This document shows, one piece after another, positions 5,731 to 10,436 of a stretch of 33,269 nucleotides of DNA. Position numbers and translations under genes: made by a program. Position 1 is the first letter of the stretch, and every line of letters starts with the position of its first letter. The notes beneath the pieces were generated by a model, which was not told the DNA's origin, did no database searches, and worked only from the letters and a program-made list of their open reading frames with translations. The DNA is from an uncultured Bacteroidota bacterium (GTDB taxonomy: Bacteria; Bacteroidota; Bacteroidia; Flavobacteriales; Flavobacteriaceae): assembly GCA_902609185.1 (NCBI GenBank), contig CACLQX010000007.1:1-33269 (forward strand), read 5' to 3'.

Positions 5731-5752
5731 TTTGATCTTAAATAAATCTAAT

Positions 5753-6760
5753 ATGAGCAAATCTAAACTTGAATATTTATGGTTGGATGGATACAAGCCA
5801 ACCCAAAGCCTGCGTGGTAAAACAAAAGTTGTATCTGATTTTAGTGGTAAACTAGATGATTGTCCAGTATGGGCTTTTGACGGTAGTTCAACTCAACAAG
5901 CCCCTGGTGGTTCTTCAGATTGTCTACTAAAGCCTGTTGCAATATATCCTGATCCAGTTAGAAAAAATGGGTTTATTGTTATGAATGAAGTTTTAAGTTC
6001 TGATGGTTCACCTCATGAATCAAATGGAAGAGCGACTATTGATGATGATGATGATGATTTTTGGTTTGGATTTGAGCAGGAATATTTCTTGTGGGATCCT
6101 GAGACAAACCTACCATTAGGTTTCCCCAAAGACCAAACTCCCCAAGGTCAATTTTATTGTTCAGTTGGTGGAAAAAATGCATTCGGAAGAGAAATTATGG
6201 ATAGACATTTAGATATATGTATCGATGCTGGGATCAACATTGAAGGAACCAATGCAGAAGTTGCTGCTGGTCAATGGGAGTTCCAGATTTTTGCAAAAGG
6301 TGCAGCGAAAGCTGGAGATGAAATTTGGGTAGCTCGTTACTTTTTAGAAAGATTAGCCGAAGATTATGGTCTAGCGATTGAGTATCATCCTAAACCATTG
6401 GGAGCAACTGATTGGAATGGTTCAGGGATGCATGCCAACTTTTCAAATTCAACTCTAAGAACTTGTGGTTCCAAAGAAACTTATGAAGCTATTTGTGAAG
6501 CTTTTAGACCTGTTGTTAATGAACACATTGCTGTTTATGGTGCATACAATGATCAAAGATTAACTGGTGAGCATGAAACTCAATCAATCACGCAGTTCAG
6601 TTATGGAGTTTCTGATAGAGGAGCATCGATTAGAATTCCTATCATAACGGTAGAGAAAGGCTACAAAGGATGGTTAGAAGATCGTAGACCTGCATCAAAT
6701 GGTGATCCTTATAAAATCGCAGCTAGAATTATAAAAACTGTTAAATCAGCTAAAGTCTAG
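5753..6760 (+). CDS. glnA: Glutamine synthetase type II (GSII, eukaryote-like)
   Basis: Condenses ammonium and glutamate with ATP. The 335 residues and the motifs KLEYLWLDGYKP, CPVWAFDGSSTQQ, FGFEQEYFLWD, EVAAGQWEFQIF, GSGMHANFS and DRRPASNGDPY identify the type II family. That family is common in eukaryotes and in Bacteroidota, and clearly differs from the 470-residue GSI and 700-residue GSIII forms. The ATG at 5753 is preferred over the in-frame TTG at 5732 because homology begins just after it. An in-frame run of six GAT codons (6041-6058) gives six aspartates just before the active-site FGFEQEY segment. The gene stands alone between its own promoter region and a strong terminator. Enzymes of this type are not controlled by the adenylylation site of GSI. 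Confidence 0.95.
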   Translation: MSKSKLEYLWLDGYKPTQSLRGKTKVVSDFSGKLDDCPVWAFDGSSTQQAPGGSSDCLLKPVAIYPDPVRKNGFIVMNEVLSSDGSPHESNGRATIDDDDDDFWFGFEQEYFLWDPETNLPLGFPKDQTPQGQFYCSVGGKNAFGREIMDRHLDICIDAGINIEGTNAEVAAGQWEFQIFAKGAAKAGDEIWVARYFLERLAEDYGLAIEYHPKPLGATDWNGSGMHANFSNSTLRTCGSKETYEAICEAFRPVVNEHIAVYGAYNDQRLTGEHETQSITQFSYGVSDRGASIRIPIITVEKGYKGWLEDRRPASNGDPYKIAARIIKTVKSAKV

Positions 6761-6784
6761 TTAGTCTAATAAATTTTAATTACT

Positions 6785-6813
6785 AAACACCCCACTTGGG
6801 GTGTTTTTTTTTT
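6785..6813. terminator. Bidirectional terminator after glnA
   Basis: A perfect 9-bp stem (AAACACCCC / GGGGTGTTT) with loop ACTT is followed by a long T-run on the plus strand. It ends glnA; the convergent antiporter gene stops against its right edge and may share it. Confidence 0.88.
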
Positions 6814-7741
6814 AGATAATAACGAGGTAATAGATGGTGAATGAACCAAGTAAAATAACTCCATGAATTCTTCCTAATATTTTTGTTTTTGAAAAAGAAT
6901 AAAAAAGAAATAAGAATAACATGAAAACAAACATTATTGATAAATCAAATTGAAGATTTAATTTATTTGTAATTTTTAAAGGTTTAATAATCGATGTTAT
7001 TCCTATAACAGCCAAAATATTAAAAATATTTGAGCCAATAATATTTCCTACAGAAATGTCTAGCTCCTTTTTGAACACAGCTACTAATGTTGTAACAACT
7101 TCTGGTAAACTTGTTCCTATGGCAACAATTGTTAAACCAATAATTCTTTCAGAAACGCCAAAATAATCTGCAAAATAAATTGATGAATCAACAAAAAATT
7201 CAGATCCAAAAAACAGCATTAAACTCGATATAAGTATTATAGCAATCAACTTGGTATTTGAACGGTATTTATCATTTGAGGATACCTCATTGTCTTTAGA
7301 GTTTTTAAAAATATAAATCAGAGACACAATTAATAAAGTAAAGAGTACAATGCCTTCAATCCTACTAATTTCAACTTTTGTTAAAGCGAAGAGAGAAAAA
7401 ATCACACTTACAATCATTAAGAAATTCCAATCTTGATATATTAATTTGGAGTTGATTTTAATTTTTGAGAAAAAAAGTGCAAGACCTAAAACTAGACCGA
7501 AATTTGCTATGTTCGAACCTATAACATTTGAAATTGCAATGTCACTAGAGTTTTTCAGAACTGAACTTATACTTATCAAAAGTTCAGGTGCAGAGGTTGC
7601 AATTGAAACCACAGTTAAACCAATAACTACTTTTGAAATTTTATACTTTAATGATAGGTCAACTGAGGATTTTAAAAGATAATTACTTCCAATAACTAAC
7701 ATTAAAAGACCCACTATCAGAAAACAGAGCTGATTCACCAT
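6812..7741 (-). CDS. Calcium/sodium antiporter, CaCA family (YrbG-like)
   Basis: About 309 residues with ten hydrophobic helices arranged as two inverted repeats. The two alpha-repeats are clear: TSAPELLISIS with GSNIANFGLVLG in the first half, and GTSLPEVVTTLVA with GSNIFNILAVIG in the second. Their acidic residues coordinate the cation. The family exchanges Na+ (or H+, K+) for Ca2+ across the inner membrane. I start it at the ATG at 7741 (MVNQLCFLIVGLLMLV), because family members begin right there and the 18 residues upstream look random. The gene is convergent with glnA and divergent from the peptidase at 7928. The transported ion is not proven by sequence. Confidence 0.88.
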   Translation of the reverse strand: MVNQLCFLIVGLLMLVIGSNYLLKSSVDLSLKYKISKVVIGLTVVSIATSAPELLISISSVLKNSSDIAISNVIGSNIANFGLVLGLALFFSKIKINSKLIYQDWNFLMIVSVIFSLFALTKVEISRIEGIVLFTLLIVSLIYIFKNSKDNEVSSNDKYRSNTKLIAIILISSLMLFFGSEFFVDSSIYFADYFGVSERIIGLTIVAIGTSLPEVVTTLVAVFKKELDISVGNIIGSNIFNILAVIGITSIIKPLKITNKLNLQFDLSIMFVFMLFLFLFYSFSKTKILGRIHGVILLGSFTIYYLVII

Positions 7742-7927
7742 AGACTTTGCTAAGATACTACATGAATTGTATATTGCGATAGAAATGAAAAGCATATATC
7801 AACTGCTAGCAAAATTGAACAAAATAATACTCCCTTGCTACTCCAAAAATGGACTAGAATTAAGCAAAGCCACAAAAATCCAGTTATTAATTATTGGATA
7901 CAGGTATTTTATTACAAAAAACTCATT

Positions 7928-8878
7928 ATGACTAAATATTTAAAATTAATTACCATTTTACTTTTTTTTTCTTGTGAAAAATCAGTAAATAATTACGCAA
8001 TTGTTATTCATGGTGGTGCTGGAACAGTGATCAGAGAGAACACACCCAAAGAATTACAAGAGAAATACGAGGATAAGTTAAGAGAAGCTCTCGAAGTTGG
8101 GTATTCTATTCTTGAGCAGGGGGGTAAAAGTATTGATGCTGTTGAAGAAACTATAAAAATACTTGAGGATTCTGAACTTTTCAATGCAGGAAGAGGCTCT
8201 GTCCTAACAAATGAGGAAACAGCTGAAATGGATGCTTCTATTATGACAGGTCAAGATCTAAATGCTGGGGCAGTTGCAACCTTAAAAATCATTAAAAATC
8301 CTATTTCTGCTGCACGTGCGGTTATGGAAAAATCAAAGCATGTTTTTTTATCAGGAGAAGGTGCCGAAAATTTTGCGGAAGATGTTGGATTAGAAACAAT
8401 TAGCAACGATTACTTTATAACAGAAAGTCAGCTAAACCAGATCAAAAGAATAAAAGACAATAAATACGGCACTGTTGGTTGTGTGGCCATTGATAAGTCT
8501 GGGAATATAACAGCAGGAACTTCAACTGGTGGAATGATGAATAAAAAATGGAATAGAATTGGAGATGTTCCAGTCATAGGTGCTGGAACCTATGCAAACA
8601 ATAAAACGTGTGGAATTTCTGCAACAGGATGGGGAGAGTATTTTATTAGAAATGTGGTCGCATATGATATTTCCGCAATGATGGAATATCAAAACAAAAC
8701 CTTGAGTGATGCTGCACGGATATCAATACACGATAAGGTTGGCAAGATGGGTGCAACGGGTGGTGTAATTGGGATAGATAAAAATGGAAAAGTTATGATG
8801 GAATTTAACTCACCAGGCATGTACAGGGGTTATAAAACCAGTAACAGTGACTTCATCGTTAAAATGTTTAAAGATTGA
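7928..8878 (+). CDS. Isoaspartyl peptidase / L-asparaginase, Ntn-hydrolase, lipoprotein
   Basis: A 316-residue plant-type asparaginase (Thr-aspartase family) that cleaves beta-aspartyl dipeptides and asparagine. Marks are IVIHGGAGT near the N-terminus, NAGRGSVL, MDASIM, and KYGTVGCVAID. In that last motif T182 should become the new N-terminal nucleophile after self-cleavage, and GTSTGGMMNK follows. A lipoprotein signal ends in LLFFSC with C16 as the modified cysteine, so the enzyme is exported and membrane-anchored. The start at 7928 is chosen because it gives this signal; the open frame upstream to 7835 codes for nothing recognisable. Codons and length are normal for Bacteroidota. Confidence 0.93.
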   Translation: MTKYLKLITILLFFSCEKSVNNYAIVIHGGAGTVIRENTPKELQEKYEDKLREALEVGYSILEQGGKSIDAVEETIKILEDSELFNAGRGSVLTNEETAEMDASIMTGQDLNAGAVATLKIIKNPISAARAVMEKSKHVFLSGEGAENFAEDVGLETISNDYFITESQLNQIKRIKDNKYGTVGCVAIDKSGNITAGTSTGGMMNKKWNRIGDVPVIGAGTYANNKTCGISATGWGEYFIRNVVAYDISAMMEYQNKTLSDAARISIHDKVGKMGATGGVIGIDKNGKVMMEFNSPGMYRGYKTSNSDFIVKMFKD

Positions 8879-8885
8879 AATATAA

Positions 8886-8915
8886 ATAAAAAAAAGGCCC
8901 TAATAATAGAGCCTT
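8886..8915 (-). terminator. Terminator shared by the peptidase gene and the small DUF4278-like gene
   Basis: A 9-bp stem with one mismatch (AAGGCCCTA / TAGAGCCTT) and loop ATAA. On the minus strand it is followed by eight T residues, so it looks best suited to the minus-strand small gene at 8939-9076. On the plus strand the T-run is interrupted. Confidence 0.75.
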
Positions 8916-8938: not shown

Positions 8939-9076
8939 TTAAAGAGCAAATTTTACTCCTCTGTAAACTCCCGTATTACCAGATGACTTTGAATTGTCTC
9001 TAGTAATATTACTTGGGCTATATTTAACACCTCTGTACGTTAAATATTTTTGAATAGTTAGGTTTGAAGTCTTCAT
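8939..9076 (-). CDS. 45-residue protein with two YRGVK motifs (DUF4278-like)
   Basis: A very small gene read on the minus strand. It starts MKTSNLTIQKYLTYRGVKYS and ends with VYRGVKFAL, so the motif YRGV-K-F/Y occurs twice, about 24 residues apart. This paired YRGV pattern is the hallmark of DUF4278, a domain best known from short proteins of marine cyanobacteria and their phages; its function is unknown. The gene has its own strong terminator 24 bases after its stop, pointing in its direction, which supports real transcription. Upstream lies a GC-rich stretch that could be a structured leader, and a TATATTTA box at 9176-9183. There is no signal peptide or membrane helix. The DUF4278 assignment is by motif reading only. 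Confidence 0.7.
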   Translation of the reverse strand: MKTSNLTIQKYLTYRGVKYSPSNITRDNSKSSGNTGVYRGVKFAL

Positions 9077-9110
9077 ACATTCATTTTAAATTTAAAACAT
9101 ATGTAACGAT

Positions 9111-9174
9111 TTTTCAGGATGCGTTCTCTCCACCCGCGACTATATTATAAATCCCAGTCTACACGGGACTTGCC
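9111..9174 (-). promoter_or_regulatory. Candidate structured RNA leader upstream of the DUF4278-like gene
   Basis: About 60 bases here have roughly 52% GC in surroundings near 20-25%, and no reading frame explains them. On the minus strand, CCCG pairs with CGGG and GACT with AGTC to form a two-part hairpin with a 1/4 internal loop. An alternative TCCC/GGGA hairpin uses some of the same bases, so the two are mutually exclusive. The element begins just after a possible TATATTTA promoter box (9176-9183) and ends about 35 bases before the small gene. I could not match it to a riboswitch family I know. A 3' untranslated part of crtY is an alternative. Confidence 0.35.
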
Positions 9175-9175
9175 A

Positions 9176-9183
9176 TAAATATA
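9176..9183 (-). promoter_or_regulatory. Candidate -7 box for the DUF4278-like gene
   Basis: TATATTTA on the minus strand, placed so that transcription would start at the first base or so of the GC-rich leader. This gene would then have an approximately 95-base leader, unlike the very short leaders predicted elsewhere in the window. Confidence 0.35.
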
Positions 9184-9290
9184 CCAAAAATTATTGATTT
9201 GATAAAATTTAGTATGTTTTTTTATGATTTTAATATTTAAGGTACTTTTAAATAAGAATATAATAATTAATTGATTTCTAGTATTTTATA

Positions 9291-10436
9291 TTATTTATTA
9301 AAAAGTGTCTTAAAAAAAGTTTTTGTAAATAGGTATTTTGGAAATGATAAAAGGATTTTTAAATCATCAAGTATATTTGACTCATCATCTAAAAATCTGA
9401 AAATTCTTTCAATTTTATTTTTCAAAAAGAGTCTTTCAAATAAATGTGAACCAAGATGATTTTGGTAATACAAAACGTCTAAAAATATTCTGTCATAATA
9501 CCAAAATCTTGTTTTTTTATTAAATTTTCTAAAATCAGTTTCTTTGTCTAAAAATTTTAGTAACTGATCTGATTTTTTATCTATAAATTTAAAAGTATAA
9601 CCAGTTGAAGGTTTTGTCCACCCCCCGGATGTACCTATATTAATAAGATTTTTAGAATTGTATTTTGAATAATCATAACAAGTCATAGGTATTACTCCCT
9701 TTTCATTGCTGATAATCTTATATTCTAATATACCAGCTTTAAATAAATAGTTTGAAATTTCTTTATCATATTCGGAATCATTTAATTTTTTCTTTGAAAA
9801 GAGTGTAAATTCAATCAATGCTTCGTTTGAACTTACAGGGAGAATATAAAAAAAACGAGTTTCTTTTTTTTGATCAATTGAAAAATCCATTATAGTTGCC
9901 TTTTCTTTATCAAAACATTTATTTTTTGTTTTGATTGTCCAACCCTTAAAATGTTGTAATAGCATTTTCAAATTTGAATTTTCATTGTAAGGAGAAAAAG
10001 TTGGAATACTATTAAAAACTTTGTCAGTTATAAATGAATTATTTGAAGTATTTATTTTAACGGTATTTGTTTGCTGATCAATTGACAAAACATCATCATA
10101 CAAAACTTCAACGTTCATTTTAGATTTTACAGTTTTTTTAATTATGTTAAAAAAATCCTGACTCTTTATCATGTTATAAGACATGTCATTTAATTCAAAA
10201 TCTAGACTTATATTATTGGTTTTAAAATTTAATTTTGACCATTTTTTAGACAAAAAAGGATTCCATTTTGAATTATTATTATCCCAAAAACACCATGTTT
10301 TATTTATATCCTTTTTTTTACTCTCTATTATTAAGATTTTCTTATCTAAATAATAGTCAATACTTGACATTTTAAAAAGAATCACAGAAGAAGATAGACC
10401 ATAACCACAGAAAATAAAATCGTAATTCTTTTTCAA
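9291..10436 (-). CDS. crtY: Lycopene beta-cyclase CrtY
   Basis: Makes beta-ionone rings on lycopene or gamma-carotene. The 381 residues carry an N-terminal dinucleotide-binding region (YDFIFCGYGLSSS), TWCFWDNN, LLQHFKGWTIKT, MDFSIDQ, FYILPVSSNEALIEFTLFS and GTSGGWTKPSTGYTF. All are conserved landmarks of bacterial CrtY. The start is a TTG at 10436, because an in-frame stop lies four codons upstream and the next ATG is inside the domain. It is divergent from the crtA-like gene across 73 bases. With CruF and CrtD beyond, it probably works on one end only, giving a monocyclic carotenoid. The protein is very rich in Lys, Asn and Phe, in line with the low GC. Confidence 0.9.
   Translation of the reverse strand: MKKNYDFIFCGYGLSSSVILFKMSSIDYYLDKKILIIESKKKDINKTWCFWDNNNSKWNPFLSKKWSKLNFKTNNISLDFELNDMSYNMIKSQDFFNIIKKTVKSKMNVEVLYDDVLSIDQQTNTVKINTSNNSFITDKVFNSIPTFSPYNENSNLKMLLQHFKGWTIKTKNKCFDKEKATIMDFSIDQKKETRFFYILPVSSNEALIEFTLFSKKKLNDSEYDKEISNYLFKAGILEYKIISNEKGVIPMTCYDYSKYNSKNLINIGTSGGWTKPSTGYTFKFIDKKSDQLLKFLDKETDFRKFNKKTRFWYYDRIFLDVLYYQNHLGSHLFERLFLKNKIERIFRFLDDESNILDDLKILLSFPKYLFTKTFFKTLFNK

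Follow-up and report, generated by a model that had tools for sequence, protein, structure and literature searches.

A conserved leader RNA ahead of a DUF4278-type micro-protein gene in uncultured flavobacteria is a candidate riboswitch

We analyzed a 33,269-nt stretch of the genome of an uncultured Flavobacteriaceae bacterium (GenBank assembly GCA_902609185.1, contig CACLQX010000007.1), hereafter "the window", in which a 45-codon gene of the DUF4278 family is preceded by a conserved leader RNA. An earlier first-pass annotation of the window, made from the letters alone, had picked out the gene and missed this RNA just 5′ of it. Judged from its conservation and covariation, the leader may represent a new class of regulatory RNA, i.e., one that stands before several kinds of tiny open reading frames (ORFs) in uncultured flavobacteria and on viral contigs. 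The reading we prefer, and in which our confidence is evenly balanced, is that the leader is a cis-acting, ligand-sensing RNA (a candidate riboswitch) controlling a genuine DUF4278 micro-protein, with nitrogen or glutamine as the likely signal.

A DUF4278-type gene under purifying selection

The first-pass annotation had placed the ORF at positions 8939–9076 and had given it 45 codons and two YRG motifs. Both the coordinates and the content were borne out, with minus as the coding strand (ATG at 9076, TAA ending at 8939) and a product, MKTSNLTIQKYLTYRGVKYSPSNITRDNSKSSGNTGVYRGVKFAL, whose translation includes YRGVKY and YRGVKF. The gene lies among the following features, listed in the direction of reading:

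9175..9183, minus strand: TATATTTAT, a candidate Bacteroidetes -7 promoter box, just 5′ of the leader and invariant in the six genus orthologs
9105..9169, minus strand: conserved leader RNA core, with two tandem pseudoknots proposed (from conservation and covariation)
8939..9076, minus strand: DUF4278-like micro-protein ORF of 45 aa with two YRGVK motifs (from translation, Pfam, orthologs, and selection)
8894..8915, minus strand: intrinsic-terminator-like hairpin followed by a T tract (one found in the hairpin search; shuffles gave a mean of 0.1, sd 0.3)

Orthologs of the 45-aa ORF could be detected by tblastn in 5 of 22 same-genus genomes, at 80–96% identity along the full 45 residues; the non-genus relatives among the 119 genomes searched yielded none. 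The same-genus genomes are 55–87% complete, so the lack of an ortholog in the other 17 does not prove that the gene was lost there. Across all six orthologs (window included), there were no indels and the TAA stop was common to all. Mean pS was 0.257 and mean pN 0.070, a ratio of 0.27, and variable sites fell 7/6/17 on codon positions 1/2/3, the third being the most variable. This is the frame conservation and synonymous-site excess in relatives that the first-pass annotation had suggested looking for, and the substitution pattern indicates that the micro-ORF frame is under purifying selection. A chance open frame might be argued from the length of only 45 codons and from the score of the window protein, which on its own stays below the Pfam cut-off. 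Against this stand the same-genus orthologs with their frame kept, the low pN/pS, and the profile matches given below, and we rejected this reading as extremely improbable. The 45-aa gene is real and more than a chance frame.

Next, we evaluated family membership with the Pfam DUF4278 profile (PF14105, gathering cut-off 25.3 bits), as the first-pass annotation had recommended. The window protein matched it at E 5.5e-5 and 23.9 bits, a match in E value that nevertheless remains under the cut-off, and it also matched PHROG 5049 (E 3.9e-5) and PHROG 545. Four of the five genus orthologs reached the DUF4278 cut-off, at 29.0, 27.3, 25.9, and 25.3 bits, the last of these scoring 24.9 bits alone and 25.3 with neighboring stretches of the frame added; the fifth (G008) scored 24.4 bits. 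YRG proteins from other lineages are 43–56% identical to the window protein, and the three scanned against DUF4278 (L040, L036, and L019, with L050, L054, and L061 left out) scored 28.7, 32.0, and 41.4 bits, all above the cut-off. Of the 397 family genomes scanned, 2 had a DUF4278 match above the cut-off; at E 0.01 there were 4, of which the one in G043 lies in a frame interrupted by two stops. In a separate scan, weak DUF4278 matches in six non-genus genomes were taken as chance. Taken together, profile scores, orthologs, and relatives from other lineages support the earlier suggestion of a DUF4278-type gene in a flavobacterium, and by sequence the gene is a flavobacterial member of this known family.

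The first-pass annotation had also called the function of such proteins undescribed, which is out of date. According to a review (PMC6316151), the cyanobacterial glutamine-synthetase inactivating factor IF17 (gifB) has DUF4278 as its N-terminal part, and PMC11288750 likewise gives gifB as DUF4278. The window protein shares DUF4278-type sequence and YRG motifs with IF17 (GifB) and with picocyanobacterial DUF4278 proteins such as PMM1846. Unlike IF17, it has at 45 aa no room for a C-terminal part: the ORF ends two residues after the second motif, YRGVKF, and the IF17-type C-terminal part is absent. A 59-aa relative had no sequence match among solved structures up to E 10. An AlphaFold model of the window peptide placed short strands around both YRG turns, and was set aside because of its pLDDT of 65.9 and pTM of 0.23.

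Gene neighborhood and transcription signals

The hairpin behind the gene had been described as a dedicated terminator in the right orientation. The orientation is right, the hairpin running from 8915 to 8894 on the minus strand, but the hairpin adjoins the end of a convergent asparaginase gene (8878) and so may not be dedicated. On the 5′ side, sigma-70-type promoter matches near the gene were not above chance (2 found vs 3.0 expected), and the candidate promoter at 9175..9183 follows what we take to be the Bacteroidetes -7 box consensus. TAnnTTT, an AT-rich motif counted here without a control, occurs ≤45 nt upstream of the leader in 42 stretches out of 53 distinct ones; a chance locus (L165) is among these stretches.

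The carotenoid neighbors named in the first-pass annotation are present, with a lycopene cyclase gene at 9291–10436 (minus strand) and more carotenoid genes beyond, and asparaginase and lycopene cyclase flank the gene in the five genus loci checked (L028, L046, L047, L056, and L058). For 12 window proteins, we looked for matches within the 3–8 kb surrounding the leader at eight further loci (L040, L057, L036, L050, L054, L061, L044, and L019, of which L044 and L019 are one place), and there were none. Since the neighbors are not kept in the other loci checked, a function within a carotenoid operon was rejected, and the carotenoid neighbors are probably not part of the story. In seven other leader loci, the 10 neighboring proteins that were scanned belonged to unrelated families or to none, and the leader and micro-ORF thus seem to travel as a unit.

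A glutamine-synthetase-domain protein and the asparaginase are encoded within 3.5 kb of the gene (window positions 5732–8878). The former is also found near the gene in L047 and L058, the genus loci whose DNA reaches that far; at the eight other loci examined, the leader has neither of the two nearby.

A leader RNA shared by uncultured flavobacteria

Directly 5′ of the ORF, a run of 71 alignment columns is identical in the six genus orthologs, the next longest run in the aligned region being 17. An exact search for a 20-mer of the leader core, GCGGGTGGAGAGAACGCATC, in a collection of 84,980 species returned 42 stretches from 41 assemblies, 5 of them the genus orthologs. All 42 are labelled MAG or uncultured, and their titles name Flavobacteriaceae (mostly), Flavobacteriales, Cryomorphaceae, Candidatus Arcticimaribacter, or Bacteroidetes. 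From the record names of many of these carrier flavobacteria, we infer a marine habitat.

We then used a covariance model (R1) built from 36 distinct complete leaders, i.e., from 49 leader rows after dropping 9 duplicates, 1 with N, and 3 that were cut. In the window, R1 matched positions 9092–9173 on the minus strand. The genome that the window comes from is 57% complete and has a single leader copy. The genome sets searched with R1 are overlapping samples, and the stricter search filters may lose weak matches. At E 0.01, R1 matched 11 of 397 family genomes, the best match reaching ≥92 bits in 9 of the 397 (the window's own included), all small assemblies of 0.9–2.1 Mb; matches of about 29 bits in G425 and G452 were taken as chance. 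Two further samples, of 395 genomes each from the order and from the phylum, yielded a match in the window's own genome alone, and among 159 relatives of genome G358 only 2 were matched.

Extra leader copies in G358 (L085 and L084; 7% contamination) lie before SusC/TonB-type receptor-like and HypD-like proteins, names given by reading the sequence, not by profile. None of the leaders we located stands ahead of a known nitrogen gene, which, like these two copies, counts against our preferred reading.

Scanning the whole window against Rfam (cmscan) returned only a tRNA. Around the ORF, a scan to E 10 gave 13 sub-threshold matches, most of them over the terminator, and no glutamine riboswitch, neither RF01739 nor RF01704 being among the matches; RF04324 at 9115–9248 on the plus strand, opposite to the leader, scored 16.4 bits vs the 150 required and was taken as chance. 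For six divergent leader loci (to E 1), there were two sub-threshold matches, one just 5′ of the leader (L103:20-109) and one far from it (L021:84-147), neither to RF01739 nor to RF01704. No description of the leader was found in open-licence PMC papers, and the RNA is apparently undescribed and outside Rfam.

Leader fold and covariation

The proposed fold consists of two hairpin stems, P1 and P2, whose loops each pair with a strand further 3′ (PK1 and PK2):

9165..9169, minus strand: P1, 5′ strand (GUCCC); covariation
9151..9155, minus strand: P1, 3′ strand (GGGAU); covariation
9156..9159, minus strand: PK1, 5′ strand, in the P1 loop (GACU); one pair GC 48 / AU 3 of 51, the other three invariant
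9138..9141, minus strand: PK1, 3′ strand (AGUC); likewise one pair GC 48 / AU 3 of 51, the other three invariant
9131..9135, minus strand: P2, 5′ strand (GGGUG); RNAalifold on alignment A3, one-sided change of GU to GC in 3 of 51
9117..9121, minus strand: P2, 3′ strand (CAUCC); RNAalifold on A3, pairing in 51 leaders
9122..9125, minus strand: PK2, 5′ strand, in the P2 loop (AACG); paired in 51 of 51, invariant
9105..9108, minus strand: PK2, 3′ strand (CGUU); paired in 51 of 51, invariant

Pairing was counted in an alignment of 51 distinct leaders (A4), made from 53 rows by removing two chance loci (L160 and L172) and L004, a near copy of L002, and adding L040 by hand; many of its rows are still close relatives. 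P1 is a hairpin stem of 4–5 pairs. Its pairs 1–5 were formed in 241 of 255 cells, vs 195.6 on average and at most 212 when the 3′ letters were shuffled (0 of 2000 as high), and pairs 2–5 were formed in 191 of 204 cells in register vs 151 and 106 of 204 when slid by one. Pair 3 changed on both sides (CG 31, UA 8, AU 7, UG 5), as did pair 4 (UA 27, AU 13, GC 7, GU 1, unpaired 3). PK1 was formed in 204 of 204 cells (shuffles 0/2000), the signal coming from the one pair that varies, and P2, near-invariant, was formed in all 51 rows.

Among the first 36 leaders, the covariation score was 0.091 vs 0.045 shuffled (0/500), and two of five covariation measures were not clearly above shuffles (both sides changed, 42/500; pair types, 264/500). 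These shuffle tests overstate the evidence for covariation because the leaders are related. The stretch GCGGGUGGAGAGAACGC is nearly invariant in A4, partly because it was used as a search query, and the invariance of the 20-mer is similarly in part an outcome of searching with it. By folding energy, the leader core alone is no better than its shuffles (z -0.13). On these alignments, P1 is well supported by covariation, and the second pseudoknot, which is nearly invariant, is proposed. What is generally expected of a riboswitch, i.e., a conserved structured RNA with covariation 5′ of ORFs, was found here for P1 and one pair of PK1.

Micro-ORFs behind bacterial leaders

On the same strand and ≤450 nt downstream of the leader, 39 of the 42 bacterial stretches carry a recognized micro-ORF motif; two of the others are cut off and one has a terminator only. 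A protein of about 41 aa, "MKYYNKTRT", follows the leader in 19 of the 42, a paired-YRG peptide in 11, an "ALEPNQGH"-type peptide in 6, a short lipoprotein-like protein ending in SNKYSKKR in 2, and a TAxGEMKK protein in 1. In L039, the MKYYNKTRT frame holds a stop.

Several of these loci merit separate description. The 41-aa protein, MKYYNKTRTIEQK, seen for example in L042, L026, and L033, is followed in L026, L029, L042, and L052 by a short protein ending in S-N-K-Y-(S/A)-K-K-R. ALEPNQGHxxA-like peptides of 22–33 aa occur behind the same leader both in flavobacteria (L022, L023, L034, L048, L051, and L059) and in viruses, and the two members of this family that were scanned had no Pfam or PHROG match. 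At L035:4752-4830 (plus strand), the leader runs straight into a strong terminator hairpin with no ORF, as a stand-alone RNA or an attenuator would.

Compact, conserved pseudoknots are a common trait of leaders that bind proteins too, and those proposed here would fit a leader bound by a protein (ribosomal, RNA-binding, or the micro-protein itself) that provides feedback control in place of metabolite sensing. However, no Rfam family matches the leader, and autoregulation by the product cannot be general because unrelated micro-proteins share the same RNA. We consider a protein-bound leader unlikely, although together with a trans-acting RNA it is the chief competing explanation, and continue with a ligand-sensing RNA as the preferred reading.

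Leader variants on viral contigs

Overall, variants of the leader could be found on at least 17 viral contigs, a count that includes copies of the same virus (L086–L088; L104 and L106 are alike). On L086–L088, the leader precedes a 22-aa peptide with a single YRG, which had no Pfam match and matched PHROG 5049 only at E 0.045. The other 14 contigs carry a variant with GAGUG in loop 1 wherever that loop is present, and 12 of these 14 encode a complete peptide of 22–26 aa such as MSDEYLMALEPNQGHLQALQEDKEK, the form on L103 being divergent; the peptide is cut on L094, and L105 ends before it. Viral members of the ALEPNQGH type were seen on L093–L096, L098–L104, L106, and L133. L102 encodes baseplate-wedge proteins, and L086 and L100 encode GroEL, which marks these contigs as phage-like.

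The exact leader 20-mer was absent from the viral sequences scanned. A first pattern scan of viral sequences gave 3 leaders in 3 stretches, and another scan gave the same 3; further scans gave 3 leaders among 7 stretches (4 chance) and 15 among 16 (L097 chance). A scan returning 66 stretches held 15 known leaders, 1 new one (L133, cut at its 5′ end), and 50 that lacked ACTGG upstream or CGTT downstream and were therefore judged to be chance. One of these 50, L151, contains the P2/PK2 half yet lies inside a long open frame. A further viral scan yielded at least 108 new loci, 13 of which passed a loose filter, none of those 13 being a leader. Named phages and plasmids had only short leader matches, taken as chance, and H10 in cyanophage MED4-213 was rejected as antisense within a CDS.

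These contigs bear on the origin of the YRG gene, which may have come from cyanobacteria or cyanophages, a flavobacterial leader then having replaced the glutamine riboswitch. This claim concerns origin and is compatible with the other readings; we regard it as possible and hold it tentatively. DUF4278 is best known from cyanobacteria (PMC6316151) and exceeds the cut-off in only 2 of 397 family genomes, and the leader occurs on viral contigs that have phage structural genes, three of them with a YRG peptide. On the other hand, several lineages carry divergent forms, at the 43–56% identity to the window protein given above, and tblastn gave no credible link to phage records (best E 1, and none in a second search), the peptides being very short. 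Since the same leader-gene pair occurs in several flavobacterial lineages and three viral contigs have leader and YRG peptide, phage-borne exchange is plausible.

Comparison with glutamine riboswitches

Passages of PMC6316151 place cyanobacterial glutamine aptamers mainly before DUF4278 genes, and report the type 2 aptamer in multiple copies in marine picocyanobacteria. We searched four cyanophages with RF01704 and found a place in each (E 1.6e-6, 2.1e-5, 0.022, and 0.105), none over the cut-off; the same search gave weak matches in 7 of 14 control genomes, so that the last two places are weak by score. With RF01739, P-SSM2 was over the cut-off (35.1 vs 35) and S-SM2 below it. In all four cyanophages, the 3-kb locus also contains a YRG frame, downstream of the aptamer place and on its strand, two of the aptamer places being convincing and two weak; the pairing of riboswitch and DUF4278 in cyanobacteria is itself in print (PMC6316151).

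In three cyanophage loci (L068, L069, and L071, from S-SM2, P-SSM2, and S-SCSM1), a second glutamine-aptamer-like sequence was read by eye 3′ of the first. It seems to hold an ORF of roughly 50 aa in a hairpin loop, before the YRG frame (L068: GCGTTCATCCC-ATG ... GGGACGCAAACGACTGAAGGAACGG).

Glutamine-II (Downstream-peptide, RF01704) and Glutamine-I (glnA, RF01739) are, like the leader, small structured 5′ UTR RNAs before very short ORFs, including DUF4278. The yfr6 / Downstream-peptide transcripts of marine cyanobacteria also combine a structured 5′ UTR with one tiny ORF, as a passage of PMC2864571 describes, but are a different RNA from a different phylum. In the window's genome, the best place for RF01739 was on another contig, at 12.4 bits. 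The leader shares with the known classes the strings GAACGC, CGG, and CGUU, which in those classes belong to the glutamine pocket (RF01739 consensus; PMC6698751), described there as a CGUUC/GAACG helix with a conserved-G strand beside it in the groove and a long-range end pair. In the leader, the strings come in another order, with CGUU last, as in a circular permutation, and its two proposed tandem pseudoknots differ from the known folds; the leader gave no covariance-model match.

Every one of the 51 leaders contains the permuted pattern (CGG, GAACGC, CGUU). Among 20,400 dinucleotide shuffles of their sequences, this order turned up 69 times, compared with 162 for the native order. Because of these shuffle frequencies, and because the pattern was written after seeing the sequences, in a comparison itself prompted by the DUF4278 link, the resemblance to the glutamine pocket is suggestive only. 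In addition, P2 as drawn would compete with part of the permuted pocket. Our estimate for the sensing of glutamine through a pocket of this kind is roughly one in five. The fuller claim makes the leader a third, independently arranged glutamine-sensing class with a circularly permuted pocket, by which small-genome flavobacteria and phages would turn on microproteins; we consider it doubtful. If it were true, a DUF4278 peptide would have come under glutamine control at least twice, through different RNAs.

A proposed translational switch

Just after CGUU, a hairpin over the start codon is possible in many versions of the leader. In the folds of L093 and L102, the partner of the CGUUGC strand is GCAAUG or GCGAUG of the ORF, and GUU(AC) likewise finds a partner within the ORF in L022, L048, L051, L077, and others; either pairing would compete with PK2 (these folds began at CGUU). 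Across 47 distinct downstream segments, the mean fold z was -1.67 vs -0.67 for 45 control segments, and z was below -1.5 in 25 of 47 vs 10 of 45. Four of 8 viral segments had z from -4.0 to -5.5 and the other four from -1.7 to -2.1; the strongest segment of all, at -6.9, is the terminator of L035. For the YRG forms, the start-codon hairpin was not significant in the four distinct genus segments (z -0.2 to -0.9) or in six other bacterial segments (z -1.3 to +1.2), and viral L086 alone among YRG loci reached -2.0. The hairpin is thus supported for several ALEPNQGH, MKYYNKTRT, and viral forms, and not for the bacterial YRG forms, the window's included.

Guided by these folding models, we propose that the class in general works as a translational switch, the start codon being freed when the leader is folded. 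The unit would be a compact cassette of candidate promoter, 65-nt leader with two proposed pseudoknots, micro-ORF, and terminator. In some ALEPNQGH versions, the CGUU strand that closes PK2 could instead extend the hairpin that buries the start codon, and a pseudoknot stabilized by its ligand would free the start codon and so turn translation on. For the YRG form, including that of the window, the same switch is an extrapolation beyond the folding support. By analogy with cyanobacterial DUF4278 genes, the signal would likely be nitrogen or glutamine status, and the YRG peptide would probably serve to adjust a nitrogen-assimilation enzyme.

Counting against such a switch, the downstream ORFs are of several unrelated kinds, which would suit instead a trans-acting or dual-function RNA, with the tiny ORFs either carried along as passengers or giving the one transcript a second role. 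The unit is short and has its own terminator-like hairpin, L035 is RNA followed by terminator, the ORF of L039 is interrupted by a stop, and the GCGGGUGGAGAGAACGC stretch is near-invariant in A4, though partly from searching with it. Yet the micro-ORF of the window is under purifying selection, micro-ORFs recur at the same place in bacteria and on viral contigs, and the interval between RNA and ORF folds over the start codon in several classes. We judge a trans-acting RNA improbable, and retain cis-acting control of the micro-ORF as our preferred reading.

Implications

The leader offers a concrete riboswitch candidate that is absent from Rfam, common to uncultured flavobacteria and viral contigs, and tied to micro-proteins. 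Its association with several unannotated proteins of 22–69 aa opens a way to their function. If the leader senses glutamine, the same peptide family would have been wired convergently to the same signal through unrelated RNAs, and the leader would be a pointer to nitrogen-use regulation in these bacteria.
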